Assembly (NCBI RefSeq): GCF_002994745.2
Contig: NC_037092.1
Coordinates: 73,249,324 to 73,313,323 of the forward strand
Direction of reading: 5' to 3'
DNA: 64,000 bases
Source: Rosa chinensis
Lineage: Eukaryota > Streptophyta > Magnoliopsida > Rosales > Rosaceae
The translations under genes and the position numbers were made by a program. The notes beneath the pieces were generated by a model. The model had not been told where the DNA came from and did not search any database. It saw nothing but the letters and a program-made list of their open reading frames with translations. The first letter of the stretch is position 1; every line of letters begins with the position of its first letter. Positions 25,461 to 62,670 of the stretch are shown piece after piece.

Positions 25461-27240
25461 TTAACATTGCAGAAATAAAAGACCATTCAAGTCTGTCATA
25501 GGCTTTACTAATATCAAGCTTTAAAGAGAAGAAACTCTCTTCCTGATACTTGAGTTTGTGCATGAAGTGTGCAGCCTCATTTGCCACTAGAGTATTATCA
25601 GAGATCAGTCTACCTGGGACATAAGCACTTTGCAAGGGAGAGACAATTTCAAGAAGCCAAATCTTAAGTTTGTTTGCCACAACTTTGGAACTAATTCTGC
25701 AAATGACATTGCGCGCATAAAGCTATAGGTCGAAAAAGCATTGCTTCTTTGGGGTCCTGGATCTTCGGGATCAAGCATAGATAGGTATGACTGGAGTGAG
25801 GCCACATATCTCCATGTTCAAGCAAGTTTCTAACTGCTAAGCCAACATCTTCACACACTACATTCCAATATTTTTGATAGAAGAATGGAGACATACCATC
25901 AGGTCCGGGAGTTTTTTATGGATGCATTTGGAAAAGAGCCTTCTTTATCTCCTCATTAGAATATGGAGCAAGTAGTGCTTCATTCATTTGCGGTGTTACA
26001 CGGCAAGGAGTTGCAGCAATAATAATGGTAATAGCCTCCTCATCAATTTGTTCAGGTGAGAAGATGTTCTTGAAATATCTCAAAAGAATTCCTTGTATTT
26101 CTTGTGGTTCATTCTGCCACATACCATGTTCATTCAGAAGTCCCTTTATGAGATTTCAACTTCTTCTGTTACTTTCTTTTCTATGAAAAAAAGCTGTGTT
26201 TCTATCACCCCTCTTCAACCAGAAGGCTCTAGATCTTGGCCTCCAATATGTCTCTTGCAATGACAGTAATTGACTATAACGAACATGAAGATTTCTTTGC
26301 TCCTTATATAGTTGTAGATAATGCGGTTGCCACATGAGGTCATTGAGCTTTTCCTGAACAACTCGCATCTCTGTATGCTGTTGATTAAAATCCGTGCGAT
26401 GATAAAGGCTTAATTTGTCACCAAAAGCCTTTGTTTTGTTTCCTATTTGTTGTAGTGCATTGCCAATCGTAGGCGTGGACCATTGTTGCCGATTCAAACA
26501 CTCCTCTATGCTAAACCAACCTTCCTCAAAGCGAAAAGGCCTGTTGATTTTCTTTCTCACTTGTCTTTCACAAAAGGCTTCAATGAGTAGAAGGCAATGA
26601 TCAGATTCAGTTGGACTGAGAGTAATGACACGATTTAATGGGAACTTGCTGCGCCATTGCACACTTTGAAAACCCCTATCTAACATTTCCTTAGTGTGTT
26701 TGCTGAACCAACTGAATCTACTACCAATAAAACCCAAATCACTGAGTCCACAAGAGGTCATAGTTCTCCTAAACTTCGTCATTGCTGCTAGGGCTCGTGG
26801 AGGGACTCCAGACTTATCCCTTCGTGTCATGACCTCATTAAAATATCCCGCCATCAACCAGGGCAAGAGACAAGCTTGAGCCGCTAAGGTTTTGATTAAA
26901 TTCCAAGTATGGTCTCCTCCTCTTCTTGTAGCAACTCCATGGATTCATGTAAATCTCCATAGGTCCGCATCAATATGATTTCGAGAGTGACTGTGCACAT
27001 CTGCATGTGTGTGCTCCGTCCAGATTATGGCTAGTCCTTGTGAGTTATGTTCTTCTGGAACACAAAAATAGTCTTTGAATCCCATTCTGCGAGTGAGCGA
27101 CTCAATAGTACTCTTCTGTGCTAGAGTTTCAGAGAGGAAAATTAGGATTGGTTTCTTCGCGAGCACGATAACCACTAAGGCTCGTTGTGTTTCATTGTTT
27201 ACTATTCCCCTGCAGTTCCAAAACAAGATGTTGCCTTAAA
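25461..27240 (-). pseudogene. L1-type LINE ORF2, 5' half (endonuclease and RT start)
   Basis: Minus-strand order: endonuclease start FWNCRGIVNNETQRALV with FLSETLAQKS (27226-27100) and GLAIIWTEHTH; then WRFT, a stop, IHGVATRRGGDHTWNLIKTL; PWLMAGYFNEV (normally GDFNE, so the metal-ligand Asp is replaced by Tyr), GLSDLGFIGSRFSWF, SPTESDHCLLL (the S-D-H catalytic end of the exonuclease-endonuclease-phosphatase fold); linker to FWLKRGDRNTAFFHRKESNRR; RT start RPIALC, ISSKVVANKLK, QSAYVPGRLISDN, DISKAYDRLEWSFISAML, where the solo LTR interrupts. Several stops and frameshifts. Its first ~300 bp are reused as the start of the tandem unit to the right. Confidence 0.9.
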
Positions 27241-27494
27241 GCATAGTGCAGATTGGTTGTTTATGAAGACGTAGCAGTTGGGTGGCAGCGCACGGAGAAG
27301 ACGACGGCAGTGCCTTAGGTTTACTTTCCTCTATATATAGCTATGATTGAATTATCTTTACTATTATAAATTGAGTCACTAGACTTCATGATGATAATAG
27401 CTTCGTTATTGTTTTTGTGATTAAAGTTATGACCGTCTTAAATGAAATAAATTAGTCTCGATGTCAATAAATATTTAATTTATATTAATTATGG

Positions 27495-27970
27495 TATTAC
27501 TACCTCAAAGCTCAGGAAGTCAACAAGGAGGCAGTGGTGTTGTATTCAGAAAAACGAAAATGGTGAGTTAATGGTTGGGGCTACAAAGCTGTTTGTGTAG
27601 TTGCCATCACCATTTGATGCAGAGTTGACAGAGCATCAAGAGGATCTCAAAATGGCTACATCACTACAATACACGCAGGTTGTCTTTGAAACTACTTTTT
27701 TGATGTTGGTTCATGCAATAAACCAATGCTCAACTAATTGTTTGACTTTAGGCTTAATCGAGGACGTGAAAATCTCTAATGCGGGATCACCCTGAATTTC
27801 GGATAGTTTTTGTTCAACGCGAGGTCAATGTAGTTGCTCACTTACTTGCTAATCAAGCTTTAGGCACTAGTGATAGTCAAAATTGGTTTGTCATAACTCC
27901 CGAAATTATAAGGGATGTTATTCTAAACGATTGTAGTTGTGTAAATGTTTTAATGAATATTTTAATTTAA
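27495..27970 (+). pseudogene. LINE-type RNase H (RVT_3) remnant, copy 1
   Basis: Reads SSGSQQGGSGVVFRKT, LPSPFDAELTEHQEDLKMA, VVFETTFLMLVHAIN, then after a stop PEFRIVFVQREVNVVAHLLANQAL and ILNDCSC. This matches the plant RVT_3 RNase H domain at the C-terminus of LINEs. It is on the opposite strand to the neighbouring LINE endonuclease, so it comes from another element. The active-site Asp expected in ETD(F)LM is Thr (ACT) here. The N-terminal catalytic segment and continuous frame are lost. Confidence 0.75.
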
Positions 27971-28374
27971 AACATTTGAGTAATGTTAGGTGAACCATCG
28001 TGTTGGTACCACATGCATCCTATCTTATGTGGCTTTGTCACATAACCCAACCTATCAAATAAGTCATTAAATGACATGGTTGAGCCACATCAAAGTGTCA
28101 CAAAAAGTGAGATTCCAGTGATATCCAAAAATGTGGTTAATCTAACATTATCCAGTTTGATTTTTTCGTCCACATAACAGAATTTTTTTAATAAAATTGC
28201 TCTAACAAGAAAATATCATTTAAGTTAAGACTTCAAACACATATTTCATTTTTGGAAACAGTTTATCATGAACACGCACAAAAAGAAGGAAGAGAATTTG
28301 GGACACCCAACTTGGGCTAGCAAAGATGCAAAATCTTTATTCTCAACTTAGTAAAACTATTGTTGCGTTAACAA

Positions 28375-28380
28375 TTTATT
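28375..28380 (-). terminator. Polyadenylation motif of cysteine-rich gene copy 1
   Basis: AATAAA on the minus strand about 40 nt after the stop codon at 28419-28421. The motif is also present downstream of copies 2-4. Confidence 0.5.
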
Positions 28381-28418
28381 TTTTGAGAAGATTTCCTTAT
28401 TGTTTTGGATCCTTGATT

Positions 28419-28758
28419 CTAGTAGAAGCAACAACACACAGTGTCTTCCTCGCATTTAGCATTGTCATCGTACTCGCCAAATACCCTATCGCAGGTTGCC
28501 TTACAAGTGTCTATTATGGTGCTGCAGGGATGCACGGTCCCAAGTCGGCATTGCAATGTACCTTAAAAATATAACAATTTTAGAAACAAACTAATTTAAG
28601 GGAATAATAACAATAATCCATGGAAAATGTAAAAAAAGAAAAAAAACTAAATAAAAATTAGAGCAACATATCCTTAAAGGATGAGGAGAAATTCGTATAC
28701 CAGTAGAGAAAACCAAGAGAAGTAATACTAGCATAGCGAAAATATAGTGGAACTTCAT
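28419..28758 (-). CDS. Defensin-like cysteine-rich secreted peptide, copy 1
   Basis: Two exons: 28758-28701 and 28561-28419, separated by a 139-bp GT-AG intron (28700-28562). Exon 1 encodes the start and a strong signal peptide (MKFHYIFAMLVLLLLVFST); the split Gly codon joins G|GT exactly. Exon 2 gives a 47-residue acidic mature peptide with eight cysteines, spacing C-x7-C-x6-C-x3-C-x12-C-x5-C-C-C, ending CCCFY then TAG. Total 66 residues. Signal-peptide exon, single phase-1 intron, and C-x3-C in a small Cys-rich domain are typical of plant defensin-like (DEFL/LCR) genes, which are secreted for defence or cell signalling. The last three adjacent cysteines are unusual, so another cysteine-rich family is possible. 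No stop or frameshift. Function cannot be read from sequence. Confidence 0.72.
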
Positions 28759-28863
28759 CTTCTTGTGTATTCGAGAACAGGTATACCCACTCGCTCTGTC
28801 AATAACAACCTGAAAATCTCAGCTCTCTCTGTCTATGATTCTGGATGATACCACAAACCACTA

Positions 28864-28870
28864 ATTTATA
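28864..28870 (-). promoter_or_regulatory. TATA box, cysteine-rich gene copy 1
   Basis: TATAAAT on the minus strand, about 106 bp upstream of the start codon, leaving a plausible 5' leader of about 75 bp that includes CT repeats. The same sequence is at 33968-33974 and at the matching place in copies 3 and 4. Confidence 0.55.
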
Positions 28871-29851
28871 ACCCAAGTCCAGTCATCAGTTTCTCAACCT
28901 TAATTATTGAATTAATATCTTCACCTGTTATATTCCTATGTAATTTTGGGTGCTATGTACTTGTATCCAACATGGAATTTGAATCAAGAGGTTGAATCCA
29001 ACATAAAATTAGAAGAATTTTTTTTTTTATTAGAATAAGTTTAATTAGAAGGTTAGTTGTTTTCAATCCTATGTGCATATATACAATACGGTTTTATCCT
29101 CCATTAAATCATTTTTCTTCTCAATCTCACCTAAAAAGTTAACATTAATTTTTGTCAGTCATTTTGATATTTTTGAAGTTTAGACTTTGAAAATGAGACT
29201 TCACTTTATTTTTCTATGCATATCAATGTGATGTGTTATTTTGTTTTTGACACTCCTCTATCGGATTAATCAAGGTATCCTAAAGGCTTCCAATGGCCAA
29301 TGACTAATCAGCTAGGGCCTCAGACAGCCAACACGGCTTTGCAACCCCACCTATATTTACGTTTATAATTCAATAAATAACACTAAACCAACCAGCATTT
29401 GAACGCAGGGCATGGGGGTTTCACATCTCGAACGTTTCGGTGGGAAGACACAGTGGATCCACTAAAACGCTTGCAGTGGTTAAAACGTGTTGTGTTATGA
29501 TTGACCTTAATACAGGTCTTCACCTGATCTACAGTAATTATGAATTTTAAGGTCTCATATCCTTGAATTTATTATCAATGACTTGAATTAAATGACCACC
29601 AAATCTTTAGTCACCCGTGACCAAATGAATGTCACTCGTAAAAGCAGGTCCAATGATCTCCTTAACTGAAATGTTTAGTCAAAATTTGAAGAGAAGATAA
29701 AAATAATCAAATATTGCTCCAATTGCGTTCTCTAGATAGAAAAATCACTAGGATCTCCTAAATTTGATGAGGAGAGAGAAAATGACTCTAGAGACTCCAA
29801 ATGGATTAAATAACCTAATTAATCTATTTTTGTTTTAGTAAATCCGAATCG

Positions 29852-30050
29852 TGTCTAGCCCAAACTCTAGGTTACTTGACCTAGTGGTAATAGGGTTTTA
29901 ATTGGAGATAATCTCGGAGAATATCTTAGATATGATTACCTTTCCTTGTACGATTCAGATTCTATGCATTGTAATCCTCTATATAAAGAGGTCCCTATTA
30001 TCAATGAGAACACACCACAATTCTCTCTCAAATATCGTTTCCCTAAAACA
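29852..30050 (+). repeat. Copia 5' LTR, copy 1, with primer binding site
   Basis: 199 bp from TGTCTAGCCC to CTAAAACA, containing CTATATAAAGAGG (TATA box near 29980) and CACACCACAATTCTCTC, a normal short copia LTR layout. It is followed at once by TGTTATCAGCACGA, the primer-site form of Ale-like copia elements. No matching 3' LTR exists in the unit. Confidence 0.7.
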
Positions 30051-31123
30051 TGTTATCAGCACGAAGCCCTAACCCTGAAACCCTAAATTCGTAGCCTTCA
30101 AACCCTAGCCACCACCGCCTCATATATTGAAGCTCTCAACTCCAGGAGTCTAGAATCGGCGGCGCCACCCCAGGAATCGGCCAGAAAGACACCGAACCGA
30201 CACCGAGAACAACCACAAGATCTCCCGCCAGGTTCACACTTTTTCTGTCCACTAATTACCGTCCAATTCTGTCACTGACTGCAACTATAACCCAGAATCT
30301 GGGAACCGGGAAGAATTTTACTGGAACCGGCCATATACGCCCTCAACCTCCCAGTTGAAGCCCTGAAATTCCGAGCCAGTCAGCCACTGCCAGCCCTTGC
30401 ACTCGCACCACCACCGAGCCCAACCCCAGAAGCCTGCAAGCCCAAAACGAGATAAGCCCAGAAAGGAAAAGGTAAAGAAGCCCACTGACGAAGCCCAATG
30501 CAGAAGCCCACTGACGTAAGCCCAGAGGCCTGCTGACGTCAGCCCAACACGCCATCGTCCACGTCAGCAACGTATTGCCACGTCAGCACCGGCACTGCCG
30601 CGTGACCGCTTCATGTTCAGCGCTACCATGTCAGCAACGGTACTTCCACGTCACCTCAGGCGACTTTTCCGGTGACTTTCTGGCTAAATTTTCATGCGAC
30701 TAATTTCGAGGTAATTTTTACTAAAAGTTCCCCTTTTTGAAGTTTTTATTTCTTTTCTCTTCATTTTCTCGGGGACTTGCAAACTCCCTTCTTCTACTCC
30801 CCTTTCTTCATCATAGGAGAGACCTAATTAAGCTGAACTGTGGGGGTGTAGTGAGCACAAACCCCCACAGTTCAGCTTAGAGTGAGCACTACAATCTTGG
30901 AGCGTGTTGGGATCTCCAAACTTAGAGTTTGTAGAGATTTTATGATCGACCACTCACATCATTGTTTCGATCTAATCCAACCGCTCTTGGAATCGAATTT
31001 CTTGGAAGCGACTACGCTCGGAAATTCCTAATATTTTGGAAGCGACTATGCTAAAAAATTCTATTATTTTCGTGGTAGCCTTTTCGCTTCGAAACTAACC
31101 CTAATCTTTTGTTGTTTTTCAGG
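30051..31123 (+). other. Copia leader, copy 1
   Basis: About 1.07 kb between the primer site and gag. It is C-rich, with repeated AGCCCACTGACG words near 30480-30540 and CACGTCAGCAACG words near 30555-30660. An ORF on the opposite strand here (rich in W and G) is antisense to these repeats and is not credited. It contains the foldback at 30830-30878. Confidence 0.6.
30830..30878. repeat. Foldback (inverted repeat) in copia leader, copy 1
   Basis: Arms AAGCTGAACTGTGGGGGT (30830-30847) and its exact reverse complement (30861-30878) with a 13-bp loop. Also present in units 2 and 3, absent from unit 4, where the loop sequence appears in the opposite orientation. Confidence 0.92.
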
Positions 31124-32025
31124 ATGAGTAACCCGAACAAGTTGTGCTTTGCTCCACTACAGACAACAGGCGCAGGATACCACTAGTGGGTCCGTGATGT
31201 GTACCAGCATCTTAAGGCTGATGGGATTCTTAGTACGATCCAAGATCTAAGTCAGAACGTGCTTACTCCTCAACAAGCTGCTGCTTTTGAAGCGAATAGA
31301 GCTACGAGAGGGGCCAATGAAGTTAAAGCCATAATTCTCATGACAAGGCACATGAATGACGCGCTTCAGAAGGAGTAGCTCAATGAGGAAGACCCCAGCA
31401 AACTATGGGTAGAACTCGAGCAGCGTTTTGGCAACGTTCATGACTCCCTGCTTCCTGATTTAGAAGTGAGATGACATAGCCTCCGCTTCTGTGATTTCAA
31501 GTCTGTACTTGAGTGCAAATTTGAAGCACTTCGTTTCAAGTCTTTGATGGAATTCTGGGGGCAGAAAATCACTGATACAATGTTGATCGAGAAGATTCTC
31601 TCTACCTTCCCCGTCTCTGCATTGATGATAGCCAAGAACTATCGGATTGATGTCAATGCTGGACGCATCACAAGATTTCATGAGCTTATTGGAGCCATGA
31701 ACGTAGCTGAAAAGCACGACAACATACTTGTGAAGAACTATAACTCTAGACCCATGGGAGAAAAGCCAATTCCGGAGTCTAATTATAGTCGCGCCCCTAA
31801 GGGTGGGCCCCAGGAGCGAAACCCAAAGGAAATGGATTATTCTGGACGTTCTGGTCCACACCCTAAAGAGGAAGGAAATAGCCAAGATAGGCGTGCACAG
31901 AACCGTAGAGGTCAACGTGTGAAGAGAGAGAGAGAGGGGCAGAGCCTCCGGCTATGGTGGTGGTGCCACCCAAAGATCATGTAAATCCTCACCGCACTCT
32001 AGGTGCGCCTCGATCAAGGGAGCCT
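31124..32025 (+). pseudogene. Copia gag fragment, copy 1
   Basis: After TTTTTCAGG it starts MSNPNKLCFAPLQTTGAGYH, a TAG, then WVRDVYQHLKADGIL, the conserved start of copia gag (UBN2/DUF4219 type). Stops also follow ALQKE and LPDLEVR. The frame 31544-31984 carries EFWGQKITDTMLIEKILSTF and FHELIGAMNVAEKHDN, then a basic, glycine-rich RNA-binding stretch. It is cut at the unit joint before protease. The same stops are in all copies, so they predate the duplication. Confidence 0.8.
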
Positions 32026-32345
32026 GATTCATGTAAATCTCGATAAGTCCGTACCCAGTTTCCATAGCTCCGCATTAATATGATTTCGAGAGTGACTGTG
32101 CACATCTGCATGTGTGTCCTCCGTCCAGATTATGGCTAGTCCTTGTGAGTTATGTTCTTCTGGAACACAAAAATAGTCTTTGAATCCCATTCTGCGAGTG
32201 AGCGACTCAATAGTACTCTTCTGTGCTAGAGTTTCAGAGAGGAAAATTAGGATTGGTTTCTTCGCGAGCACGATAACCACTAAGGCTCGTTGTGTTTCAT
32301 TGTTTACTATTCCCCTGCAGTTCCAAAGCAAGATGTTGCCTTAAA
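32026..32345 (-). pseudogene. LINE ORF2 start, copy 2 (tandem unit)
   Basis: Repeats the LINE endonuclease start (FWNCRG changed to LWNCRG) as far as the unit joint. It has a 21-bp in-frame insertion (KLGTDLS) compared with unit 1. Only about 100 residues, no catalytic half; a duplicated fragment. Confidence 0.85.
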
Positions 32346-32599
32346 GCATAGTGCAGATTGGTTGTTTATGAAGACGTAGCAGTTGGGTGGCAGCGCACGG
32401 AGAAGACGACGGCAGTGCCTTAGGTTTACTTTCCTCTATATATAGCTATGATGAATTATCTTTACTATTATAAATTGAGTCACTAGACTTCATGATGATA
32501 ATAGCTTCGTTATTGTTTTTGTGATTAAAGTTATGACCGTCTTAAATGAAATAAATTAGTCTCGATGTCAATAAATATTTAATTTATATTAATTATGGT

Positions 32600-33074
32600 A
32601 TTACTACCTCAAAGCTCAGGAAGTCAACAAGGAGGCAGTGGTGTTGTATTCAGAAAAACGAAAATGGTGAGTTAATGGTTGGGGCTACAAAGCTGTTTGT
32701 GCAGTTGCCATCACCATTTGATGCAGAGTTGACAGAGCATCAAGAGGATCTCAAAATGGCTACATCACTACAATACACGCAGGTTGTCTTTGAAACTGCT
32801 TTTTTGATGTTGGTTCATGCAATAAACCAATGCTCAACTAATTGTTTGACTTTAGGCTTAATCGAGGACGTGAAAATCTCTAATGCGGGATCACCCTGAA
32901 TTTCGGATAGTTTTTGTTCAACGCGAGGTCAATGTAGTTGCTCACTTACTTGCTAATCAAGCTTTAGGCACTAGTGATAGTCAAAATTGGTTTGTCATAA
33001 CTCCCGAAATTATAAGGGATGTTATTCTAAACGATTGTAGTTGTGTAAATGTTTTAATGAATATTTTAATTTAA
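32600..33074 (+). pseudogene. LINE-type RNase H remnant, copy 2
   Basis: As copy 1, but the codon at the expected active-site Asp is GCT (Ala), and the TAG before LPSPFDAEL in copy 1 is CAG (Gln), giving a longer frame from MVGATKLFVQ. Confidence 0.75.
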
Positions 33075-33522
33075 AACATTTGAGTAATGTTAGGTGAACC
33101 ATCGTGTTGGTACCACATGCATCCTATCTTATGTGGCTTTGTCACATAACCCAACCTATCAAATAAGTCATTAAATGACATGGTTGAGCCACATCAAAGT
33201 GTCACAAAAAGTGAGATTCCAGTGATATCCAAAAATGTGGTTAATCTAACATTATCCAGTTTGATTTTTTCGTCCACATAACAGAATTTTTTTAATAAAA
33301 TTGCTCTAACAAGCAAATATCATTTAAGTTAAGACTTCAAACACATATTTCATTTTTGGAAACAGTTTATCATGAACACGCACAAAAAGAAGGAAGAGAA
33401 TTTGGGACACCCAACTTGGGCTAGCAAAGATGCAAAATCTTTATTCTCAACTTAGTAAAACTATTGTTGCGTTAACAATTTATTTTTCGAGAAGATTTCC
33501 TTATTGTTTTGGATCCTTGATT

Positions 33523-33862
33523 CTAGTAGAAGCAACAACACACAGTGTCTTCCTCGCATTTAGCATTGTCATCGTACTCGCCAAATACCCTATCGCAGGT
33601 TGCCTTACAAGTGTCTATTATGGTGCTGCAGGGATGCACGGTCCCAAGTCGGCATTGCAATGTACCTTAAAAATATAACAATTTTAGAAACAAACTAATT
33701 TAAGGGAATAATAACAATAATCCATGGAAAATGTAAAAAAAGAAAAAAAACTAAATAAAAATTAGAGCAACATATCCTTAAAGGATGAGGAGAAATTCGT
33801 ATACCAGTAGAGAAAACCAAGAGAAGTAATACTAGCATAGCGAAAATATAGTGGAACTTCAT
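33523..33862 (-). CDS. Defensin-like cysteine-rich secreted peptide, copy 2
   Basis: Exons 33862-33805 and 33665-33523. Coding sequence, splice sites and intron length (139 bp) are identical to copy 1; one leader base differs (GAATAGG against GAACAGG, about 25 bp before the ATG). It lies 5,104 bp from copy 1. Confidence 0.72.
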
Positions 33863-34957
33863 CTTCTTGTGTATTCGAGAATAGGTATACCCACTCGCTC
33901 TGTCAATAACAACCTGAAAATCTCAGCTCTCTCTGTCTATGATTCTGGATGATACCACAAACCACTAATTTATAACCCAAGTCCAGTCATCAGTTTCTCA
34001 ACCTTAATTATTGAATTAATATCTTCACCTGTTATATTCCTATGTAATTTTGGGTGCTATGTACTTGTATCCAACATGGAATTTGAATCAAGAGGTTGAA
34101 TCCAACATAAAATTAGAAGAATTTTTTTTTTTTTATTAGAATAAGTTTAATTAGAAGGTTAGTTGTTTTCAATCCTATGTGCATATATACAATACGGTTT
34201 TATCCTCCATTAAATCATTTTTCTTCTCAATCTCACCTAAAAAGTTAACATTAATTTTTGTCAGTCATTTTGATATTTTTGAAGTTTAGACTTTGAAAAT
34301 GAGACTTCACTTTATTTTTCTATGCATATCAATGTGATGTGTTATTTTGTTTTTGACACTCCTCTATCGGATTAATCAAGGTATCCTAAAGGCTTCCAAT
34401 GGCCAATGACTAATCAGCTAGGGCCTCAGACAGCCAACACGGCTTTGCAACCCCACCTATATTTACGTTTATTATTCAATAAATAACACTAAACCAACCA
34501 GCATTTGAACGCAGGGCATGGGGGTTTCACATCTCGAACGTTTCGGTGGGAAGACACAGTGGATCCACTAAAACGCTTGCAGTGGTTAAAACGTGTTGTG
34601 TTATGATTGACCTTAATACAGGTCTTCACCTGATCTACAGTAATTATGAATTTTAAGGTCTCATATCCTTGAATTTATTATCAATGACTTGAATTAAATG
34701 ACCACCAAATCTTTAGTCACCCGTGACCAAATGAATGTCACTCGTAAAAGTAGGTCCAATGATCTCCTTAACTGAAATGTTTAGTCAAAATTTGAAGAGA
34801 AGATAAAAATAATCAAATATTGCTCCAATTGCGTTCTCTAGATAGAAAAATCACTAGGATCTCCTAAATTTGATGAGGAGAGAGAAAATGACTCTAGAGA
34901 CTCCAAATGGATTAAATAACCTAATTAATCTATTTTTGTTTTAGTAAATCCGAATCG

Positions 34958-35156
34958 TGTCTAGCCCAAACTCTAGGTTACTTGACCTAGTGGTAATAGG
35001 GTTTTAATTGGAGATAATCTCGGAGAATATCTTAGATATGATTACCTTTCCTTGTACGATTCAGATTCTATGCATTGTAATCCTCTATATAAAGAGGTCC
35101 CTATTATCAATGAGAACACACCACAATTCTCTCTCAAATATCGTTTCCCTAAAACA
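34958..35156 (+). repeat. Copia 5' LTR, copy 2
   Basis: Same 199-bp LTR, 5,106 bp from copy 1, followed by the same primer site, leader and foldback (35936-35984). Confidence 0.7.
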
Positions 35157-36229
35157 TGTTATCAGCACGAAGCCCTAACCCTGAAACCCTAAATTCGTAG
35201 CCTTCAAACCCTAGCCACCACCGCCTCATATATTGAAGCTCTCAACTCCAGGAGTCTAGAATCGGCGGCGCCACCCCAGGAATCGGCCAGAAAGACACCG
35301 AACCGACACCGAGAACAACCACAAGATCTCCCGCCAGGTTCACACTTTTTCTGTCCACTAATTACCGTCCAATTCTGTCACTGACTGCAACTATAACCCA
35401 GAATCTGGGAACCGGGAAGAATTTTACTGGAACCGGCCATATACGCCCTCAACCTCCCAGTTGAAGCCCTGAAATTCCGAGCCAGTCAGCCACTGCCAGC
35501 CCTTGCACTCGCACCACCACCGAGCCCAACCCCAGAAGCCTGCAAGCCCAAAACGAGATAAGCCCAGAAAGGAAAAGGTAAAGAAGCCCACTGACGAAGC
35601 CCAATGCAGAAGCCCACTGACGTAAGCCCAGAGGCCTGCTGACGTCAGCCCAACACGCCATCGTCCACGTCAGCAACGTATTGCCACGTCAGCACCGGCA
35701 CTGCCGCGTGACCGCTTCATGTTCAGCGCTACCATGTCAGCAACGGTACTTCCACGTCACCTCAGGCGACTTTTCCGGTGACTTTCTGGCTAAATTTTCA
35801 TGCGACTAATTTCGAGGTAATTTTTACTAAAAGTTCCCCTTTTTGAAGTTTTTATTTCTTTTCTCTTCATTTTCTCGGGGACTTGCAAACTCCCTTCTTC
35901 TACTCCCCTTTCTTCATCATAGGAGAGACCTAATTAAGCTGAACTGTGGGGGTGTAGTGAGCACAAACCCCCACAGTTCAGCTTAGAGTGAGCACTACAA
36001 TCTTGGAGCGTGTTGGGATCTCCAAACTTAGAGTTTGTAGAGATTTTATGATCGACCACTCACATCATTGTTTCGATCTAATCCAACCGCTCTTGGAATC
36101 GAATTTCTTGGAAGCGACTACGCTCGGAAATTCCTAATATTTTGGAAGCGACTATGCTAAAAAATTCTATTATTTTCGTGGTAGCCTTTTCGCTTCGAAA
36201 CTAACCCTAATCTTTTGTTGTTTTTCAGG

Positions 36230-37131
36230 ATGAGTAACCCGAACAAGTTGTGCTTTGCTCCACTACAGACAACAGGCGCAGGATACCACTAGTGGGTCCG
36301 TGATGTGTACCAGCATCTTAAGGCTGATGGGATTCTTAGTACGATCCAAGATCTAAGTCAGAACGTGCTTACTCCTCAACAAGCTGCTGCTTTTGAAGCG
36401 AATAGAGCTACGAGAGGGGCCAATGAAGTTAAAGCCATAATTCTCATGACAAGGCACATGAATGACGCGCTTCAGAAGGAGTAGCTCAATGAGGAAGACC
36501 CCAGCAAACTATGGGTAGAACTCGAGCAGCGTTTTGGCAACGTTCATGACTCCCTGCTTCCTGATTTAGAAGTGAGATGACATAGCCTCCGCTTCTGTGA
36601 TTTCAAGTCTGTACTTGAGTGCAAATTTGAAGCACTTCGTTTCAAGTCTTTGATGGAATTCTGGGGGCAGAAAATCACTGATACAATGTTGATCGAGAAG
36701 ATTCTCTCTACCTTCCCCGTCTCTGCATTGATGATAGCCAAGAACTATCGGATTGATGTCAATGCTGGACGCATCACAAGATTTCATGAGCTTATTGGAG
36801 CCATGAACGTAGCTGAAAAGCACGACAACATACTTGTGAAGAACTATAACTCTAGACCCATGGGAGAAAAGCCAATTCCGGAGTCTAATTATAGTCGCGC
36901 CCCTAAGGGTGGGCCCCAGGAGCGAAACCCAAAGGAAATGGATTATTCTGGACGTTCTGGTCCACACCCTAAAGAGGAAGGAAATAGCCAAGATAGGCGT
37001 GCACAGAACCGTAGAGGTCAACGTGTGAAGAGAGAGAGAGAGGGGCAGAGCCTCCGGCTATGGTGGTGGTGCCACCCAAAGATCATGTAAATCCTCACCG
37101 CACTCTAGGTGCGCCTCGATCAAGGGAGCCT
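36230..37131 (+). pseudogene. Copia gag fragment, copy 2
   Basis: Same start, same internal stops and same joint to LINE sequence as copy 1. Confidence 0.8.
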
Positions 37132-37451
37132 GATTCATGTAAATCTCGATAAGTCCGTACCCAGTTTCCATAGCTCCGCATTAATATGATTTCGAGAGTG
37201 ACTGTGCACATCTACATGTGTGTCCTCCGTCCAGATTATGGCTAGTCCTTGTGAGTTATGTTCTTCTGGAACACAAAAATAGTCTTTGAATCCCATTCTG
37301 CGAGTGAGCGACTCAATAGTACTCTTCTGTGCTAGAGTTTCAGAGAGGAAAATTAGGATTGGTTTCTTCGCGAGCACGATAACCACTAAGGCTCGTTGTG
37401 TTTCATTGTTTACTATTCCCCTGCAGTTCCAAAGCAAGATGTTGCCTTAAA
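37132..37451 (-). pseudogene. LINE ORF2 start, copy 3
   Basis: As copy 2. One substitution changes Ala to Val (THADVH to THVDVH), shared with copy 4 and not with copies 1-2. Confidence 0.85.
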
Positions 37452-37705
37452 GCATAGTGCAGATTGGTTGTTTATGAAGACGTAGCAGTTGGGTGGCAGC
37501 GCACGGAGAAGACGACGGCAGTGCCTTAGGTTTACTTTCCTCTATATATAGCTATGATGAATTATCTTTACTATTATAAATTGAGTCACTAGACTTCATG
37601 ATGATAATAGCTTCGTTATTGTTTTTGTGATTAAAGTTATGACCGTCTTAAATGAAATAAATTAGTCTCGATGTCAATAAATATTTAATTTATATTAATT
37701 ATGGT

Positions 37706-38180
37706 ATTACTACCTCAAAGCTCAGGAAGTCAACAAGGAGGCAGTGGTGTTGTATTCAGAAAAACGAAAATGGTGAGTTAATGGTTGGGGCTACAAAGCT
37801 GTTTGTGCAGTTGCCATCACCATTTGATGCAGAGTTGACAGAGCATCAAGAGGATCTCAAAATGGCTACATCACTACAATACACGCAGGTTGTCTTTGAA
37901 ACTGATTTTTTGATGTTGGTTCATGCAATAAACCAATGCTCAACTAATTGTTTGACTTTAGGCTTAATCGAGGACGTGAAAATCTCTAATGCGGGATCAC
38001 CCTGAATTTCGGATAGTTTTTGTTCAACGCGAGGTCAATGTAGTTGCTCACTTACTTGCTAATCAAGCTTTAGGCACTAGTGATAGTCAAAATTGGTTTG
38101 TCATAACTCCCGAAATTATAAGGGATGTTATTCTAAACGATTGTAGTTGTGTAAATGTTTTAATGAATATTTTAATTTAA
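37706..38180 (+). pseudogene. LINE-type RNase H remnant, copy 3
   Basis: As copy 2, but the active-site position is GAT (Asp), giving ETDFLMLVHAIN, the family consensus. Confidence 0.75.
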
Positions 38181-38628
38181 AACATTTGAGTAATGTTAGG
38201 TGAACCATCGTGTTGGTACCACATGCATCCTATCTTATGTGGCTTTGTCACATAACCCAACCTATCAAATAAGTCATTAAATGACATGGTTGAGCCACAT
38301 CAAAGTGTCACAAAAAGTGAGATTCCAGTGATATCCAAAAATGTGGTTAATCTAACATTATCCAGTTTGATTTTTTCGTCCACATAACAGAATTTTTTTA
38401 ATAAAATTGCTCTAACAAGCAAATATCATTTAAGTTAAGACTTCAAACACATATTTCATTTTTGGAAACAGTTTATCATGAACACGCACAAAAAGAAGGA
38501 AGAGAATTTGGGACACCCAACTTGGGCTATCAAAGATGCAAAATCTTTATTCTCAACTTAGTAAAACTATTGTTGCGTTAACAATTTATTTTTCGAGAAG
38601 ATTTCCTTATTGTTTTGGATCCTTGATT

Positions 38629-38969
38629 CTAGTAGAAGCAACAACACACAGTGTCTTCCTCGCATTTAGCATTGTCATCGTACTCGCCAAATACCCTATC
38701 GCAGGTTGCCTTACAAGTGTCTATTATGGTGCTGCAGGGATGCACGGTCCCAAGTCGGCATTGCAATGTACCTTAAAAATATAACAATTTTAGAAACAAA
38801 CTAATTTAAGGGAATAATAACAATAATCCATGGAAAATGTAAAAAAAGAAAAAAAAACTAAATAAAAATTAGAGCAACATATCCTTAAAGGATGAGGAGA
38901 AATTCGTATACCAGTAGAGAAAACCAAGAGAAGTAATACTAGCATAGCGAAAATATAGTGGAACTTCAT
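38629..38969 (-). CDS. Defensin-like cysteine-rich secreted peptide, copy 3
   Basis: Exons 38969-38912 and 38771-38629. Coding sequence is identical to copies 1, 2 and 4. The intron is one base longer (140 bp) through an A-run in its middle, with no effect on splicing. Confidence 0.72.
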
Positions 38970-40063
38970 CTTCTTGTGTATTCGAGAACAGGTATACCCA
39001 CTCGCTCTGTCAATAACAACCTGAAAATCTCAGCTCTCTCTGTCTATGATTCTGGATGATACCACAAACCACTAATTTATAACCCAAGTCCAGTCATCAG
39101 TTTCTCAACCTTAATTATTGAATTAATATCTTCACCTGTTATATTCCTATGTAATTTTGGGTGCTATGTACTTGTATCCAACATGGAATTTGAATCAAGA
39201 GGTTGAATCCAACATAAAATTAGAAGAATTTTTTTTTTTTATTAGAATAAGTTTAATTAGAAGGTTAGTTGTTTTCAATCCTATGTGCATATATACAATA
39301 CGGTTTTATCCTCCATTAAATCATTTTTCTTCTCAATCTCACCTAAAAAGTTAACATTAATTTTTGTCAGTCATTTTGATATTTTTGAAGTTTAGACTTT
39401 GAAAATGAGACTTCACTTTATTTTTCTATGCATATCAATGTGATGTGTTATTTTGTTTTTGACACTCCTCTATCGGATTAATCAAGGTATCCTAAAGGCT
39501 TCCAATGGCCAATGACTAATCAGCTAGGGCCTCAGACAGCCAACACGGCTTTGCAACCCCACCTATATTTACGTTTATAATTCAATAAATAACACTAAAC
39601 CAACCAGCATTTGAACGCAGGGCATGGGGGTTTCACATCTCGAACGTTTCGGTGGGAAGACACAGTGGATCCACTAAAACGCTTGCAGTGGTTAAAACGT
39701 GTTGTGTTATGATTGACCTTAATACAGGTCTTCACCTGATCTACAGTAATTATGAATTTTAAGGTCTCATATCCTTGAATTTATTATCAATGACTTGAAT
39801 TAAATGACCACCAAATCTTTAGTCACCCGTGACCAAATGAATGTCACTCGTAAAAGCAGGTCCAATGATCTCCTTAACTGAAATGTTTAGTCAAAATTTG
39901 AAGAGAAGATAAAAATAATCAAATATTGCTCCAATTGCGTTCTCTAGATAGAAAAATCACTAGGATCTCCTAAATTTGATGAGGAGAGAGAAAATGACTC
40001 TAGAGACTCCAAATGGATTAAATAACCTAATTAATCTATTTTTGTTTTAGTAAATCCGAATCG

Positions 40064-40262
40064 TGTCTAGCCCAAACTCTAGGTTACTTGACCTAGTGGT
40101 AATAGGGTTTTAATTGGAGATAATCTCGGAGAATATCTTAGATATGATTACCTTTCCTTGTACGATTCAGATTCTATGCATTGTAATCCTCTATATAAAG
40201 AGGTCCCTATTATCAATGAGAACACACCACAATTCTCTCTCAAATATCGTTTCCCTAAAACA
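40064..40262 (+). repeat. Copia 5' LTR, copy 3
   Basis: Same 199-bp LTR with primer site; leader and foldback follow at about 41042-41090. Confidence 0.7.
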
Positions 40263-41335
40263 TGTTATCAGCACGAAGCCCTAACCCTGAAACCCTAAAT
40301 TCGTAGCCTTCAAACCCTAGCCACCACTGCCTCATATATTGAAGCTCTCAACTCCAGGAGTCTAGAATCGGCGGCGCCACCCCAGGAATCGGCCAGAAAG
40401 ACACCGAACCGACACCGAGAACAACCACAAGATCTCCCGCCAGGTTCACACTTTTTCTGTCCACTAATTACCGTCCAATTCTGTCACTGACTGCAACTAT
40501 AACCCAGAATCTGGGAACCGGGAAGAATTTTACTGGAACCGGCCATATACGCCCTCAACCTCCCAGTTGAAGCCCTGAAATTCCGAGCCAGTCAGCCACT
40601 GCCAGCCCTTGCACTCGCACCACCACCGAGCCCAACCCCAGAAGCCTGCAAGCCCAAAACGAGATAAGCCCAGAAAGGAAAAGGTAAAGAAGCCCACTGA
40701 CGAAGCCCAATGCAGAAGCCCACTGACGTAAGCCCAGAGGCCTGCTGACGTCAGCCCAACACGCCATCGTCCACGTCAGCAACGTATTGCCACGTCAGCA
40801 CCGGCACTGCCGCGTGACCGCTTCATGTTCAGCGCTACCATGTCAGCAACGGTACTTCCACGTCACCTCAGGCGACTTTTCCGGTGACTTTCTGGCTAAA
40901 TTTTCCTGCGACTAATTTCGAGGTAATTTTTACTAAAAGTTCCCCTTTTTGAAGTTTTTATTTCTTTTCTCTTCATTTTCTCGGGGACTTGCAAACTCCC
41001 TTCTTCTACTCCCCTTTCTTCATCATAGGAGAGACCTAATTAAGCTGAACTGTGGGGGTGTAGTGAGCACAAACCCCCACAGTTCAGCTTAGAGTGAGCA
41101 CTACAATCTTGGAGCGTGTTGGGATCTCCAAACTTAGAGTTTGTAGAGATTTTATGATCGACCACTCACATCATTGTTTCGATCTAATCCAACCGCTCTT
41201 GGAATCGAATTTCTTGGAAGCGACTACGCTCGGAAATTCCTAATATTTTGGAAGCGACTATGCTAAAAAATTCTATTATTTTCGTGGTAGCCTTTTCGCT
41301 TCGAAACTAACCCTAATCTTTTGTTGTTTTTCAGG

Positions 41336-42237
41336 ATGAGTAACCCGAACAAGTTGTGCTTTGCTCCACTACAGACAACAGGCGCAGGATACCACTAGTG
41401 GGTCCGTGATGTGTACCAGCATCTTAAGGCTGATGGGATTCTTAGTACGATCCAAGATCTAAGTCAGAACGTGCTTACTCCTCAACAAGCTGCTGCTTTT
41501 GAAGCGAATAGAGCTACGAGAGGGGCCAATGAAGTTAAAGCCATAATCCTCATGACAAGGCACATGAATGACGCGCTTCAGAAGGAGTAGCTCAATGAGG
41601 AAGACCCCAGCAAACTATGGGTAGAACTCGAGCAGCGTTTTGGCAACGTTCATGACTCCCTGCTTCCTGATTTAGAAGTGAGATGACATAGCCTCCGCTT
41701 CTGTGATTTCAAGTCTGTACTTGAGTGCAAATTTGAAGCACTTCGTTTCAAGTCTTTGATGGAATTCTGGGGGCAGAAAATCACTGATACAATGTTGATC
41801 GAGAAGATTCTCTCTACCTTCCCCGTCTCTGCATTGATGATAGCCAAGAACTATCGGATTGATGTCAATGCTGGACGCATCACAAGATTTCATGAGCTTA
41901 TTGGAGCCATGAACGTAGCTGAAAAGCACGACAACATACTTGTGAAGAACTATAACTCTAGACCCATGGGAGAAAAGCCAATTCCGGAGTCTAATTATAG
42001 TCGCGCCCCTAAGGGTGGGCCCCAGGAGCGAAACCCAAAGGAAATGGATTATTCTGGACGTTCTGGTCCACACCCTAAAGAGGAAGGAAATAGCCAAGAT
42101 AGGCGTGCACAGAACCGTAGAGGTCAACGTGTGAAGAGAGAGAGAGAGGGGCAGAGCCTCCGGCTATGGTGGTGGTGCCACCCAAAGATCATGTAAATCC
42201 TCACCGCACTCTAGGTGCGCCTCGATCAAGGGAGCCT
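41336..42237 (+). pseudogene. Copia gag fragment, copy 3
   Basis: As copies 1 and 2, same stops and same joint. One silent-type difference (ATAATCCTC for ATAATTCTC) is shared with copy 4. Confidence 0.8.
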
Positions 42238-42557
42238 GATTCATGTAAATCTCGATAAGTCCGTACCCAGTTTCCATAGCTCCGCATTAATATGATTTCG
42301 AGAGTGACTGTGCACATCTACATGTGTGTCCTCCGTCCAGATTATGGCTAGTCCTTGTGAGTTATGTTCTTCTGGAACACAAAAATAGTCTTTGAATCCC
42401 ATTCTGCGAGTGAGCGACTCAATAGTACTCTTCTGTGCTAGAGTTTCAGAGAGGAAAATTAGGATTGGTTTCTTCGCGAGCACGATAACCACTAAGGCTC
42501 GTTGTGTTTCATTGTTTACTATTCCCCTGCAGTTCCAAAGCAAGATGTTGCCTTAAA
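42238..42557 (-). pseudogene. LINE ORF2 start, copy 4
   Basis: As copy 3, including THVDVH. Confidence 0.85.
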
Positions 42558-42811
42558 GCATAGTGCAGATTGGTTGTTTATGAAGACGTAGCAGTTGGGT
42601 GGCAGCGCACGGAGAAGACGACGGCAGTGCCTTAGGTTTACTTTCCTCTATATATAGCTATGATGAATTATCTTTACTATTATAAATTGAGTCACTAGAC
42701 TTCATGATGATAATAGCTTCGTTATTGTTTTTGTGATTAAAGTTATGACCGTCTTAAATGAAATAAATTAGTCTCGATGTCAATAAATATTTAATTTATA
42801 TTAATTATGGT

Positions 42812-43286
42812 ATTACTACCTCAAAGCTCAGGAAGTCAACAAGGAGGCAGTGGTGTTGTATTCAGAAAAACGAAAATGGTGAGTTAATGGTTGGGGCTAC
42901 AAAGCTGTTTGTGCAGTTGCCATCACCATTTGATGCAGAGTTGACAGAGCATCAAGAGGATCTCAAAATGGCTACATCACTACAATACACGCAGGTTGTC
43001 TTTGAAACTGCTTTTTTGATGTTGGTTCATGCAATAAACCAATGCTCAACTAATTGTTTGACTTTAGGCTTAATCGAGGACGTGAAAATCTCTAATGCGG
43101 GATCACCCTGAATTTCGGATAGTTTTTGTTCAACGCGAGGTCAATGTAGTTGCTCACTTACTTGCTAATCAAGCTTTAGGCACTAGTGATAGTCAAAATT
43201 GGTTTGTCATAACTCCCGAAATTATAAGGGATGTTATTCTAAACGATTGTAGTTGTGTAAATGTTTTAATGAATATTTTAATTTAA
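42812..43286 (+). pseudogene. LINE-type RNase H remnant, copy 4
   Basis: As copy 2; the active-site position is GCT (Ala). Confidence 0.75.
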
Positions 43287-43734
43287 AACATTTGAGTAAT
43301 GTTAGGTGAACCATCGTGTTGGTACCACATGCATCCTATCTTATGTGGCTTTGTCACATAACCCAACCTATCAAATAAGTCATTAAATGACATGGTTGAG
43401 CCACATCAAAGTGTCACAAAAAGTGAGATTCCAGTGATATCCAAAAATGTGGTTAATCTAACATTATCCAGTTTGATTTTTTCGTCCACATAACAGAATT
43501 TTTTTAATAAAATTGCTCTAACAAGCAAATATCATTTAAGTTAAGACTTCAAACACATATTTCATTTTTGGAAACAGTTTATCATGAACACGCACAAAAA
43601 GAAGGAAGAGAATTTGGGACACCCAACTTGGGCTAGCAAAGATGCAAAATCTTTATTCTCAACTTAGTAAAACTATTGTTGCGTTAACAATTTATTTTTC
43701 GAGAAGATTTCCTTATTGTTTTGGATCCTTGATT

Positions 43735-44074
43735 CTAGTAGAAGCAACAACACACAGTGTCTTCCTCGCATTTAGCATTGTCATCGTACTCGCCAAATAC
43801 CCTATCGCAGGTTGCCTTACAAGTGTCTATTATGGTGCTGCAGGGATGCACGGTCCCAAGTCGGCATTGCAATGTACCTTAAAAATATAACAATTTTAGA
43901 AACAAACTAATTTAAGGGAATAATAACAATAATCCATGGAAAATGTAAAAAAAGAAAAAAAACTAAATAAAAATTAGAGCAACATATCCTTAAAGGATGA
44001 GGAGAAATTCGTATACCAGTAGAGAAAACCAAGAGAAGTAATACTAGCATAGCGAAAATATAGTGGAACTTCAT
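43735..44074 (-). CDS. Defensin-like cysteine-rich secreted peptide, copy 4
   Basis: Exons 44074-44017 and 43877-43735, with a 139-bp intron. Coding sequence is identical to the other three copies. TATA box, leader and polyadenylation motif are also kept. Confidence 0.72.
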
Positions 44075-45168
44075 CTTCTTGTGTATTCGAGAACAGGTAT
44101 ACCCACTCGCTCTGTCAATAACAACCTGAAAATCTCAGCTCTCTCTGTCTATGATTCTGGATGATACCACAAACCACTAATTTATAACCCAAGTCCAGTC
44201 ATCAGTTTCTCAACCTTAATTATTGAATTAATATCTTCACCTGTTATATTCCTATGTAATTTTGGGTGCTATGTACTTGTATCCAACATGGAATTTGAAT
44301 CAAGAGGTTGAATCCAACATAAAATTAGAAGAATTTTTTTTTTTTATTAGAATAAGTTTAATTAGAAGGTTAGTTGTTTTCAATCCTATGTGCATATATA
44401 CAATACGGTTTTATCCTCCATTAAATCATTTTTCTTCTCAATCTCACCTAAAAAGTTAACATTAATTTTTGTCAGTCATTTTGATATTTTTGAAGTTTAG
44501 ACTTTGAAAATGAGACTTCACTTTATTTTTCTATGCATATCAATGTGATGTGTTATTTTGTTTTTGACACTCCTCTATCGGATTAATCAAGGTATCCTAA
44601 AGGCTTCCAATGGCCAATGACTAATCAGCTAGGGCCTCAGACAGCCAACACGGCTTTGCAACCCCACCTATATTTACGTTTATAATTCAATAAATAACAC
44701 TAAACCAACCAGCATTTGAACGCAGGGCATGGGGGTTTCACATCTCGAACGTTTCGGTGGGAAGACACAGTGGATCCACTAAAACGCTTGCAGTGGTTAA
44801 AACGTGTTGTGTTATGATTGACCTTAATACAGGTCTTCACCTGATCTACAGTAATTATGAATTTTAAGGTCTCATATCCTTGAATTTATTATCAATGACT
44901 TGAATTAAATGACCACCAAATCTTTAGTCACCCGTGACCAAATGAATGTCACTCGTAAAAGCAGGTCCAATGATCTCCTTAACTGAAATGTTTAGTCAAA
45001 ATTTGAAGAGAAGATAAAAATAATCAAATATTGCTCCAATTGCGTTCTCTAGATAGAAAAATCACTAGGATCTCCTAAATTTGATGAGGAGAGAGAAAAT
45101 GACTCTAGAGACTCCAAATGGATTAAATAACCTAATTAATCTATTTTTGTTTTAGTAAATCCGAATCG

Positions 45169-45367
45169 TGTCTAGCCCAAACTCTAGGTTACTTGACCTA
45201 GTGGTAATAGGGTTTTAATTGGAGATAATCTCGGAGAATATCTTAGATATGATTACCTTTCCTTGTACGATTCAGATTCTATGCATTGTAATCCTCTATA
45301 TAAAGAGGTCCCTATTATCAATGAGAACACACCACAATTCTCTCTCAAATATCGTTTCCCTAAAACA
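45169..45367 (+). repeat. Copia 5' LTR, copy 4
   Basis: Same 199-bp LTR with primer site. The leader that follows diverges from the others from about 45787 on: an extra CCCACTGACGTAAG repeat, several substitutions, and no foldback near 46161-46190. Confidence 0.7.
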
Positions 45368-46422
45368 TGTTATCAGCACGAAGCCCTAACCCTGAAACCC
45401 TAAATTCGTAGCCTTCAAACCCTAGCCACCACCGCCTCATATATTGAAGCTCTCAACTCCAGGAGTCTAGAATCGGCGGCGCCACCCCAGGAATCGGCCA
45501 GAAAGACACCGAACCGACACCGAGAACAACCACAAGATCTCCCGCCAGGTTCACACTTTTTCTGTCCACTAATTACCGTCCAATTCTGTCACTGACTGCA
45601 ACTATAACCCAGAATCTGGGAACCGGGAAGAATTTTACTGGAACCGGCCATATACGCCCTCAACCTCCCAGTTGAAGCCCTGAAATTCCGAGCCAGTCAG
45701 CCACTGCCAGCCCTTGCACTCGCACCACCACCGAGCCCAACCCCAGAAGCCTGCAAGCCCAAAACGAGATAAGCCCAGAAAGGAAAAGGAAAAGAAGCCC
45801 ACTGACGAAGCCCAATGCAGAAGCCCACTGACGTAAGCCCACTGACGTAAGCCCAGAGGCCTGCTGACGTCAGCCCAACACGCCATCGTCCACGTCAGCA
45901 ACGTATTGCCACGTTAGCACCGGCACTGCCGCGTGACCGCTTCAGGTTCTGCGCTACCATGTCAGCAACGGTACTGCCACGTCACCTCAGGCGACTTTTC
46001 CGGTGACTTTCTGGCCAAATTTTCCGGCGACTAATTTCGAGGTAATTTTTACTAAAAGTTCCCCTTTTTAAAGTTTTTATTTCTTTTCTCTTCTTTTTCT
46101 CGGGGACTTGCAAACTCCCTTCTTCTACTCCCCTTTCTTCATCATAGGAGAGACCTAATTAAGCTGAACTGTGGGGGTTTGTGCTCACTACAATCTTGGA
46201 GCGTGTTGAGATCTCCAAACTTAGAGTTTGTAGAGATTTTATGATCGACCACTCACATCATTGTTTCGATCTAATCCAACCGCTCTTGGAATCGAATTTC
46301 TTGGAAGCGACTACGCTTGGAAATTTCTAATATTTTGGAAGCGACTATGCTAAAAAATTATATTATTTTCGTGGTAGCCTTTTCACTTCGAAACTAACCC
46401 TAATCTTTTGTTGTTTTTCAGG

Positions 46423-46775
46423 ATGAGTAACCCGAACAAGTTGTGCTTTGCTCCACTACAGACAACAGGCGCAGGATACCACTAGTGGGTCCGTGATGTG
46501 TACCAACATCTTAAGGCTGATGGGATTCTTAGTACGATCCAAGAGCTAAGTTAGAACGTGCTTACTCCTCAACAAGCTGCCGCTTTTGAAGCGAATAGAG
46601 CTACGAGAGAGGCCAATGAAGTTAAAGCCATAATCCTCATGACAAGGCACATGAATGACGCGCTTCATAAGGAGTAGCTCAATGAGGAAGACCCCAGCAA
46701 ACTATGGGTAGAACTCGAGCCGCAGAGTTTTGGCAACGTTCGTGACTCCCTGCTTCCTGATTTAGAAGTGAGATG
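46423..46775 (+). pseudogene. Copia gag fragment, copy 4, truncated
   Basis: Starts MSNPNKLCFAPLQTTGAGYH with the same TAG after it, plus extra changes (a TAG in the LSQNV segment, a 3-base insertion near 46720). It stops at AGATG, where the array ends, about 520 bp earlier than gag in units 1-3. Confidence 0.78.
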
Positions 46776-47345
46776 GCTTTATTTTTTTCATTTTTGATGC
46801 AGTTTCTACATCTACCCATTGTATTCTTTGTTATTATTAATGGAGTTGTTATTTTCTCCCCAAAAAAAAATGATGAAATGTGTTCTTGATGTCAATTAAT
46901 TATGGTATCACTACCTCAACCTCCAGTGGTGTTGTATTTAAAAACGAAAATGGCGAGTTAATGGTTGAGGCTACAGAGCCCTTTGTGCAATTGTCATCAC
47001 CATTTCATGTATAGTTGACTGAACTTCAAGAGGCCTTCTCATAATTGCTACATCACTAGAATACCTGCAGGTAGTCTTTGAAACTGACTTTTTGATGTTG
47101 GTTCATGAAATAAACCAATGCTCAACTGATTGTTCAACTTTGAGTTTTCTGATCAAGGACGTGAAAAGCTCTGATGCATGATCACCCTGAATTTCGGATT
47201 GTTTATGTTCAACGTGAGGCCAATATAGTTGCTCACTTACTTGCTAATCAAGCTTTAGGCACTAGTGATAGCTAAAGTTGGTTTGTCATAGCTCCCGAAA
47301 TTATAAGGGATGCCATTCTAAACATTTGTAGTTGTTAAATTTTTC
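46776..47345 (+). pseudogene. Diverged LINE 3' end with RNase H remnant outside the array
   Basis: After a short AT-rich tail-like stretch (46776-46880), this is an older relative of the RNase H segment in the units: VVFKNENGELMVEAT, ETDFLMLVHEINQCSTD, PEFRIVYVQREANIVAHLLANQAL. The active-site Asp (GAC) is kept. It differs from the unit copies at many positions, while those copies are almost alike. It marks the right edge of the array. Confidence 0.7.
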
Positions 47346-51468: not shown

Positions 51469-51633
51469 CTTTTGCAACAAAATTCAACCAAAGGAAGAGA
51501 ATAAAAACACACAGTTTGGGATATAGAACAATGAAACTAAACCATAATCAATTTCTGGCTGCACAGTTTTTCAGAGACAATAAATCAAATAGTTCATCAT
51601 CAATTTTGGAAAAGGCTCCATTACTAGACTCAC

Positions 51634-58110: not shown

Positions 58111-58122
58111 TGTCCCGTTGCG

Positions 58123-59897: not shown

Positions 59898-59934
59898 CTT
59901 GGCAACTTCTTCTCCTATAGCACGGTATTTCTCT

Positions 59935-62636: not shown

Positions 62637-62670
62637 GGTGATTGTGGCGGGATGACCTTTTGTTCAAGGG

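Follow-up and report, generated by a model that had tools for sequence, protein, structure and literature searches.

Four identical copies of a two-exon gene, probably of a fast-evolving group-2 defensin-like family, in a tandem array on rose chromosome 5

We analysed a 64,000-nt stretch of Rosa chinensis chromosome 5 (NC_037092.1, forward-strand positions 73,249,324 to 73,313,323; hereafter, the window), in which a tandem array carries four copies of a small cysteine-rich peptide gene. The best explanation overall, and in our judgement a probable one, is that these copies are complete genes of a fast-evolving family of group-2 defensin-like (DEFL) peptides that is local to this chromosome 5 locus. 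That the family is a real coding one we consider almost certain; that the array gene is still functional seems likely from its sequence, with somewhat less assurance.

An earlier note on this DNA had described a four-copy, minus-strand, two-exon gene for a 66-residue peptide with eight cysteines, forming a tandem array with decayed sequence around it, and we could rebuild this model in all copies. The coding sequences (CDSs) lie at 28758-28419, 33862-33523, 38969-38629 and 44074-43735, all on the minus strand, and all give the same 66-residue translation. Exon 1 is 58 nt long (19 codons plus a G) and exon 2 is 143 nt long including the stop; the intron has the 139 bp given in the note in copies 1, 2 and 4, but 140 bp in copy 3. 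The donor G/GTATAC and the acceptor AAG/GT (slashes mark the exon boundaries) are unchanged across the four copies and, as the note had it, the exon joint, the TATA box and the polyadenylation (poly(A)) motif are kept. The features of the gene are the following.

28701-28758, minus strand: exon 1 of copy 1 (leader).
28562-28700, minus strand: intron of copy 1, 139 bp, GT-AG, phase 1, with a homologous intron in paralogue A (described below).
28419-28561, minus strand: exon 2 of copy 1 (putative 46-residue mature peptide with 8 cysteines, and stop), resting on homologue A and the predicted fold.
33805-33862, minus strand: exon 1 of copy 2.
33523-33665, minus strand: exon 2 of copy 2.
38912-38969, minus strand: exon 1 of copy 3 (intron 140 bp).
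38629-38771, minus strand: exon 2 of copy 3.
44017-44074, minus strand: exon 1 of copy 4.
43735-43877, minus strand: exon 2 of copy 4.
28865-28870, minus strand: TATAAA of copy 1, starting 112 nt upstream of the ATG.
28375-28380, minus strand: AATAAA of copy 1, 39 nt downstream of the stop; the 3' flank of paralogue A, as aligned, has this motif too.

Exon 1 would encode a hydrophobic leader (best 10-residue Kyte-Doolittle mean 3.42, hydrophobicity being the only criterion), the phase-1 intron would fall at the leader end, and exon 2 would supply an acidic (isoelectric point, pI, 4.45) mature peptide of 46 residues that is presumably secreted. Its cysteines are spaced x7, x6, x3, x12, x5 and end in CCC. 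This spacing had been called unusual for a DEFL; in fact, it fits the published group-2 DEFL motif CX{3,21}CX{2,12}CX{3,4}CX{3,15}CX{4,23}CCC, known from wheat (Triticum kiharae) and Leymus arenarius (PMC6329339).

Genome-wide searches took in 515 Mb in 53 contigs (C5 is chromosome 5). The DNA search gave six matches, namely the four copies and two relatives, A and B, and further fragments of the array unit lie on the same chromosome.

C5:73168402-73168851: paralogue A, 73%, about 109 kb from the array.
C5:73177180-73177447: half-gene B, 79%.
C5:73127013-73128622 (two pieces), C5:73166404-73166781, C5:73188354-73188784 and C5:73245054-73245168: further unit fragments.

Protein searches with exon 2 of either the array or A each returned the same five exon-2 loci and, among the best candidates, which were those scored, none other at E <= 10. 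A weak TLHCRPNTL match near L007:3015 was considered as a third exon 2 and rejected, being a 3' flank fragment with no open cysteine-rich frame. The cysteine framework of the array gene recurs at A, in the same genome. A lacks promoter and start; what it keeps is the leader exon except for its first two codons, the intron, and an exon 2 that is open over 50 codons and ends in CCC plus one residue. Both A and the array peptide have 8 cysteines and fit the group-2 motif, with different loop lengths (8, 4, 3, 11, 5, CCC in A versus 7, 6, 3, 12, 5, CCC). B keeps the 5' untranslated region, start and leader exon, but its intron breaks off after about 30 bp and its TATA is changed. To us, these sequences indicate a locus that has repeatedly undergone duplication and decay.

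The annotated gene RchiOBHm_Chr5g0067121 at L007:4298-4990 (C5:73168297-73168989), which encodes a hypothetical Rosa chinensis protein, matches A at 100% identity in its two annotated exons; a literature search for its locus tag found no paper. Its annotated exon 2 begins at the acceptor homologous to that of the array. It shares with the array gene a homologous exon 2, intron and 3' flank and the 8-cysteine framework with CCC, and differs in being truncated at the 5' end, in an unrelated first exon without obvious leader, in a basic exon 2 (pI 8.17) and in largely different loops. It looks like a promoter-less, 5'-truncated relative to which the annotation gave an unrelated first exon.

Between the array and A, the intron is 85.3% identical (116/136), the 3' flank 82.3% and the leader exon 40/51. 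When exon 2 was aligned on its cysteines, 24/24 bases of cysteine codons were identical and 44 of the 102 other bases differed (43%), versus 53/322 in intron plus 3' flank (16%), and the length changes were all of whole codons (+7, +1, -2, -1, -1). The alignment that MAFFT itself made of exon 2 paired seven cysteines, with 48 of 108 bases differing, 28/69 in the part from IDTC on. Nonsynonymous sites showed an excess of changes over the intron (P 0.0009). When neutral drift at the intron and flank rate was simulated, 2.6% of indel-free runs and 0.15-1.3% of runs with indels retained both the open frame and the cysteine pattern. We take this divergence to mean that the scaffold was kept while the loops changed fast, which would suit an extracellular recognition peptide with a changing partner; of the roles considered, this is the likeliest for the array peptide.

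In six frames of 263 kb (the window and its surroundings) the group-2 motif occurred in exactly five places, the four copies and A. The exon 2 pattern C..CxxxC..C..CxC was found in 1/400 unit shuffles and nowhere in real non-array DNA; at least eight cysteines in 46 residues occurred in 5/400 unit shuffles and in seven frames of real non-array DNA.

The mature peptide likely takes the cysteine-stabilised alpha-beta (CS-alpha-beta) fold, as judged from structure models. AlphaFold2 (AF2) on the single sequence gave a helix then two strands at a predicted confidence (pLDDT) of 65.3; with P0121 added, the best model reached 74.8 as strand-helix-strand-strand, the others going down to 61.2. A second structure comparison listed 16 matches for the first model, which we take to be defensins or scorpion-type toxins, and 27 for the second, mostly defensins or scorpion-type toxins with five plainly unrelated. 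Since all had Z <= 4.0, the fold is likely, short of established. In the predicted order, the helix C-x3-C would pair with the first and third cysteines of CCC in two core bridges, Cys2 with Cys5 in a third, and Cys1 with the middle cysteine of CCC in a fourth.

Several results weigh against the array copies being complete genes of such a family. In the sequence outside the array, 82 of 1686 ATGs have a TATAAA 55-150 nt ahead of them and 280 of 4737 stop triplets are followed by AATAAA within 57 nt, and each motif, taken singly, is weak evidence. Foldseek gave no significant match with either structure model. A generic scan (hydrophobic N-terminus, one GT-AG intron, at least 8 cysteines in the last exon) recovered the array gene in the unit, plus alternative forms sharing its last exon. 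The two-exon model also appeared in 7/1000 dinucleotide shuffles of one unit; real non-array DNA gave four last exons (three from a TG repeat, one spurious), and 14/100 shuffles of non-array DNA gave at least one match. Because of these last two results the generic model alone is only moderately significant, and the doubt it leaves is mostly removed by the relatives found. A base alignment of exon 2 without codon constraint splits some gaps into non-triplets (net change 12 bases), so the whole-codon reading of the gaps depends on codon-wise alignment. By the NG86 method, exon 2 has a dN of 0.44, a dS of 0.58 and a ratio of 0.76 (bootstrap 0.30-2.03, with 28% of replicates above 1), and its excess of changes is therefore visible only against the non-coding neighbours.

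This last point feeds the strongest of the alternatives, in which the fast loops do not reflect diversifying selection: the exon 2 sequences of A and the array would descend from paralogues further apart, with intron and flanks made to look younger by gene conversion. The exon 2 dS stands against about 0.16 in the intron (Jukes-Cantor, 20/136), and the interval on dN/dS accommodates this reading. However, of the 20 codons encoding the same residue in both, 18 agree at every base (hand count), unlike what a much older split would leave, a count softened by the fact that choosing identical residues itself favours identical codons. We regard conversion as a serious possibility, while leaning against it.

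The array gene may also be a silent passenger, that is, a once-functional DEFL gene, now untranscribed, that was copied with repeat-rich DNA and is intact only through recency. The older relatives are indeed broken (A is cut at codon 3, B in the intron, and two flank fragments are geneless); the core of the array has diverged so little (7 substitutions in about 2776 columns across four units) that decay would not yet be visible; and the intact copies have no match in the protein database within the length range searched. Against this, nothing is broken in the TATA, splice sites, frame or poly(A) motif of the amplified lineage, and this lineage held frame and cysteines before the amplification while its loops changed. 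On balance we find such a passenger unlikely.

A somewhat less likely alternative is that of the earlier note, in which the amplification was selected because it raised the dosage of a peptide for defence or signalling. In its favour, all four copies are intact and every one has an upstream region of its own. The history of the array bears on it, and the array is laid out as follows.

26956-46775, no strand: tandem array (self-comparison and four-way alignment).
26956-32060, 32061-37166 and 37167-42272: units 1, 2 and 3, full, ~5.1 kb each (about 5105 bp).
42273-46775: unit 4, shorter, without the last ~590 bp (it stops at unit offset 4517).
31474-32060, no strand: 587-bp segment between units 1 and 2, in the place of the note's 'copia gag'.
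45790-46775, no strand: tail of unit 4, with 25 private substitutions, insertions of 14 bp and 3 bp and a 32-bp deletion.
46886-47359, plus strand: diverged (82-86%) copy of unit offset 520-1011, without the gene (self-comparison).

In the four-way alignment of the units, from which variants were counted up to column 4505, the head of unit 1 has 6 private substitutions within the first 740 columns, and the array core (columns 745 to 3520) has 7 substitutions and three 1-bp indel columns among the four units (hand counts). The tail of unit 4 appears from its sequence to be an older, unhomogenised array edge, and older edges around a homogenised core are the expected outcome of unequal crossing over or conversion. 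The 201 coding bases are identical in the four copies, as had been noted, but we rejected the argument that this identity shows selection: with about 9 variants in 2776 core columns, 201 bases stay unchanged with P 0.51 and no selection is needed. The array edges and the scattered older copies nearby also point to repeated recombination with decay. Recombination in repeat-rich DNA accounts for the array just as well as selection for dose would.

The 587-bp segment recurs after units 2 and 3 and is missing after unit 4, so it may be a junction filler or have been lost from unit 4. Its open reading frame (ORF) had no Pfam match at E <= 10, and the labels LINE (long interspersed nuclear element) and copia gag given earlier to unit sequence found no match at that threshold; the RNase H label has behind it a sub-threshold RVT_3 match (E 0.0014). 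The copy at 46886-47359 corresponds to the RNase H-bearing unit part and may be what is left of a fifth, older unit, or else a dispersed repeat. A 16-bp sequence, GATTCATGTAAATCTC, is common to the left flank (26942-26957) and to the unit junctions (32026-32041), where about 20 extra bases come after it; on its left side the duplication may in fact start near 26942.

Finally, a chance open frame with no gene is very implausible and was rejected: the exons are short, and the generic model did occur in 7/1000 unit shuffles and once in the real flanks besides the TG repeat, but homologue A speaks against it, having an exon 2 that is open, shares the framework, differs in length by whole codons and starts at an annotated homologous acceptor.

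We thus return to complete genes of a local family. In it, the cysteine scaffold would have been retained while the loops changed fast, the old copies (A, B and the fragments) would have decayed, and one lineage would have been re-amplified recently to four identical copies, probably through unequal recombination. The locus offers a case of turnover of a secreted-peptide family in repeat-rich DNA, with broken A and B and a freshly amplified lineage within about 130 kb.

The earlier note held that plain ORF calling misses the gene, and no matching annotated protein was present in the database searched, which includes Rosa and Prunus proteins and the annotated A. None shared three 5-residue words with the array peptide at 0.55-1.75x its length, a scope that sets aside fusion into a much longer protein and distant relatives, and a protein search with array and A together returned only the protein of A (15 candidates). 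The four intact array genes thus appear unannotated there, while a broken relative is annotated. Expression or association studies based on the rose gene set would miss the array genes, because they seem absent from it. Gene finders often overlook small one- or two-exon peptide genes (PMC3924332).

The rest of the window contains other elements. Direct repeats of 1.85 kb at 7981-9829 and 19083-20924 are 91.5% identical and about 9 kb apart, and between them lie hAT transposase pieces with BED finger and hAT domains (15655-17798). These repeats are possibly an old pair of long terminal repeats (LTRs) with a nested hAT. A hAT ORF in the window has 94% identity to a protein from Rosa chinensis. 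A Ty3/gypsy-type element occupies 51631-63200 on the minus strand (gag 60595-62271, reverse transcriptase/RNase H 58551-59981) and is flanked by direct repeats at 51631-52143 and 62687-63200, 95% identical, which are probably its LTRs. Minisatellites lie at 14919-15286 (80-bp unit x 4.6) and 52735-53015 (61-bp unit x 4.8). Rfam and tRNA scans gave no match.

As to its class, the array peptide matched 0 Pfam-A families at E <= 10, and a PDB sequence search gave nothing beyond one match at E 2.1; in viral and prokaryotic contigs, none of 12 and 122 pattern stretches, respectively, was confirmed. The array gene has the DEFL-type layout of two exons with the intron between signal and mature peptide, as is usual in cysteine-rich peptide genes (PMC3924332). 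Classical 8-cysteine plant defensins resemble the array peptide in the predicted CS-alpha-beta order, C-x3-C and C-x-C (C-C-C in the array); it differs from them in being acidic and in having the extra cysteine inside C-x-C instead of after it. It therefore does not fit the group-1 motif CX{4,25}CX{2,12}CX{3,4}CX{3,17}CX{4,32}CXCX{1,6}C (PMC11050963, PMC6329339), which has a cysteine after C-x-C. The 6-cysteine group-3 motif CX{2,14}CX{3,5}CX{3,16}CX{4,28}CXC fits only if X may be cysteine, and group 2 is closer.

The function of the array gene may be approached by comparison. A recognition or signalling role is a tentative proposal; reproductive tissue is the commonest site of Arabidopsis DEFLs, most of those detected being expressed there (210/234 DEFLs and MEGs detected; PMC3601123). 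A defence role, which the earlier note had suggested, appears unlikely: the peptide is acidic, and basic charge is said to typify the antimicrobial DEFLs of another member of the Rosaceae, though the wheat group-2 members were all called antimicrobial by an antimicrobial peptide predictor (PMC6329339). The same source cites group 2 as an example of treatment-non-responsive DEFLs and considers non-defensive functions possible. Within 1 kb upstream of the array gene there are no MYB98-type or GCC-box sites, and W-box-like TTGACY occurs only at -924 and -748.

The AtLURE1 cluster (CRP810_1) is likewise a species-specific DEFL cluster that arose by local duplication and/or gene conversion and includes a pseudogene; it belongs to another genus, Arabidopsis, functions in pollen-tube attraction and shows no evidence of positive selection (PMC3525529). 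Arabidopsis DEFLs evolve largely neutrally, LUREs being exceptional in species-specific duplicates (PMC5731061). We consider it improbable that this is a rose recognition locus, in which loops of CCC DEFLs outpace neutral DNA around 8 fixed cysteines and the sole surviving lineage was re-amplified as a LURE- or SCR-like discriminating peptide.

The main text of a DEFL survey in Filipendula (Rosaceae) does not contain the string CCC at word starts. The closest likeness is with the wheat and Leymus group-2 DEFLs, which share with the array peptide the motif, a precursor with a leader (here judged by hydrophobicity only) and a charge that is not basic; the wheat members are neutral (pI 6.37-7.10) rather than acidic, and the likeness is one of motif. 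The CCC-ending framework is also found in a Fusarium protein, and to the group-2 DEFLs so described in two cereals and a fungus (PMC6329339) the array adds a eudicot case.

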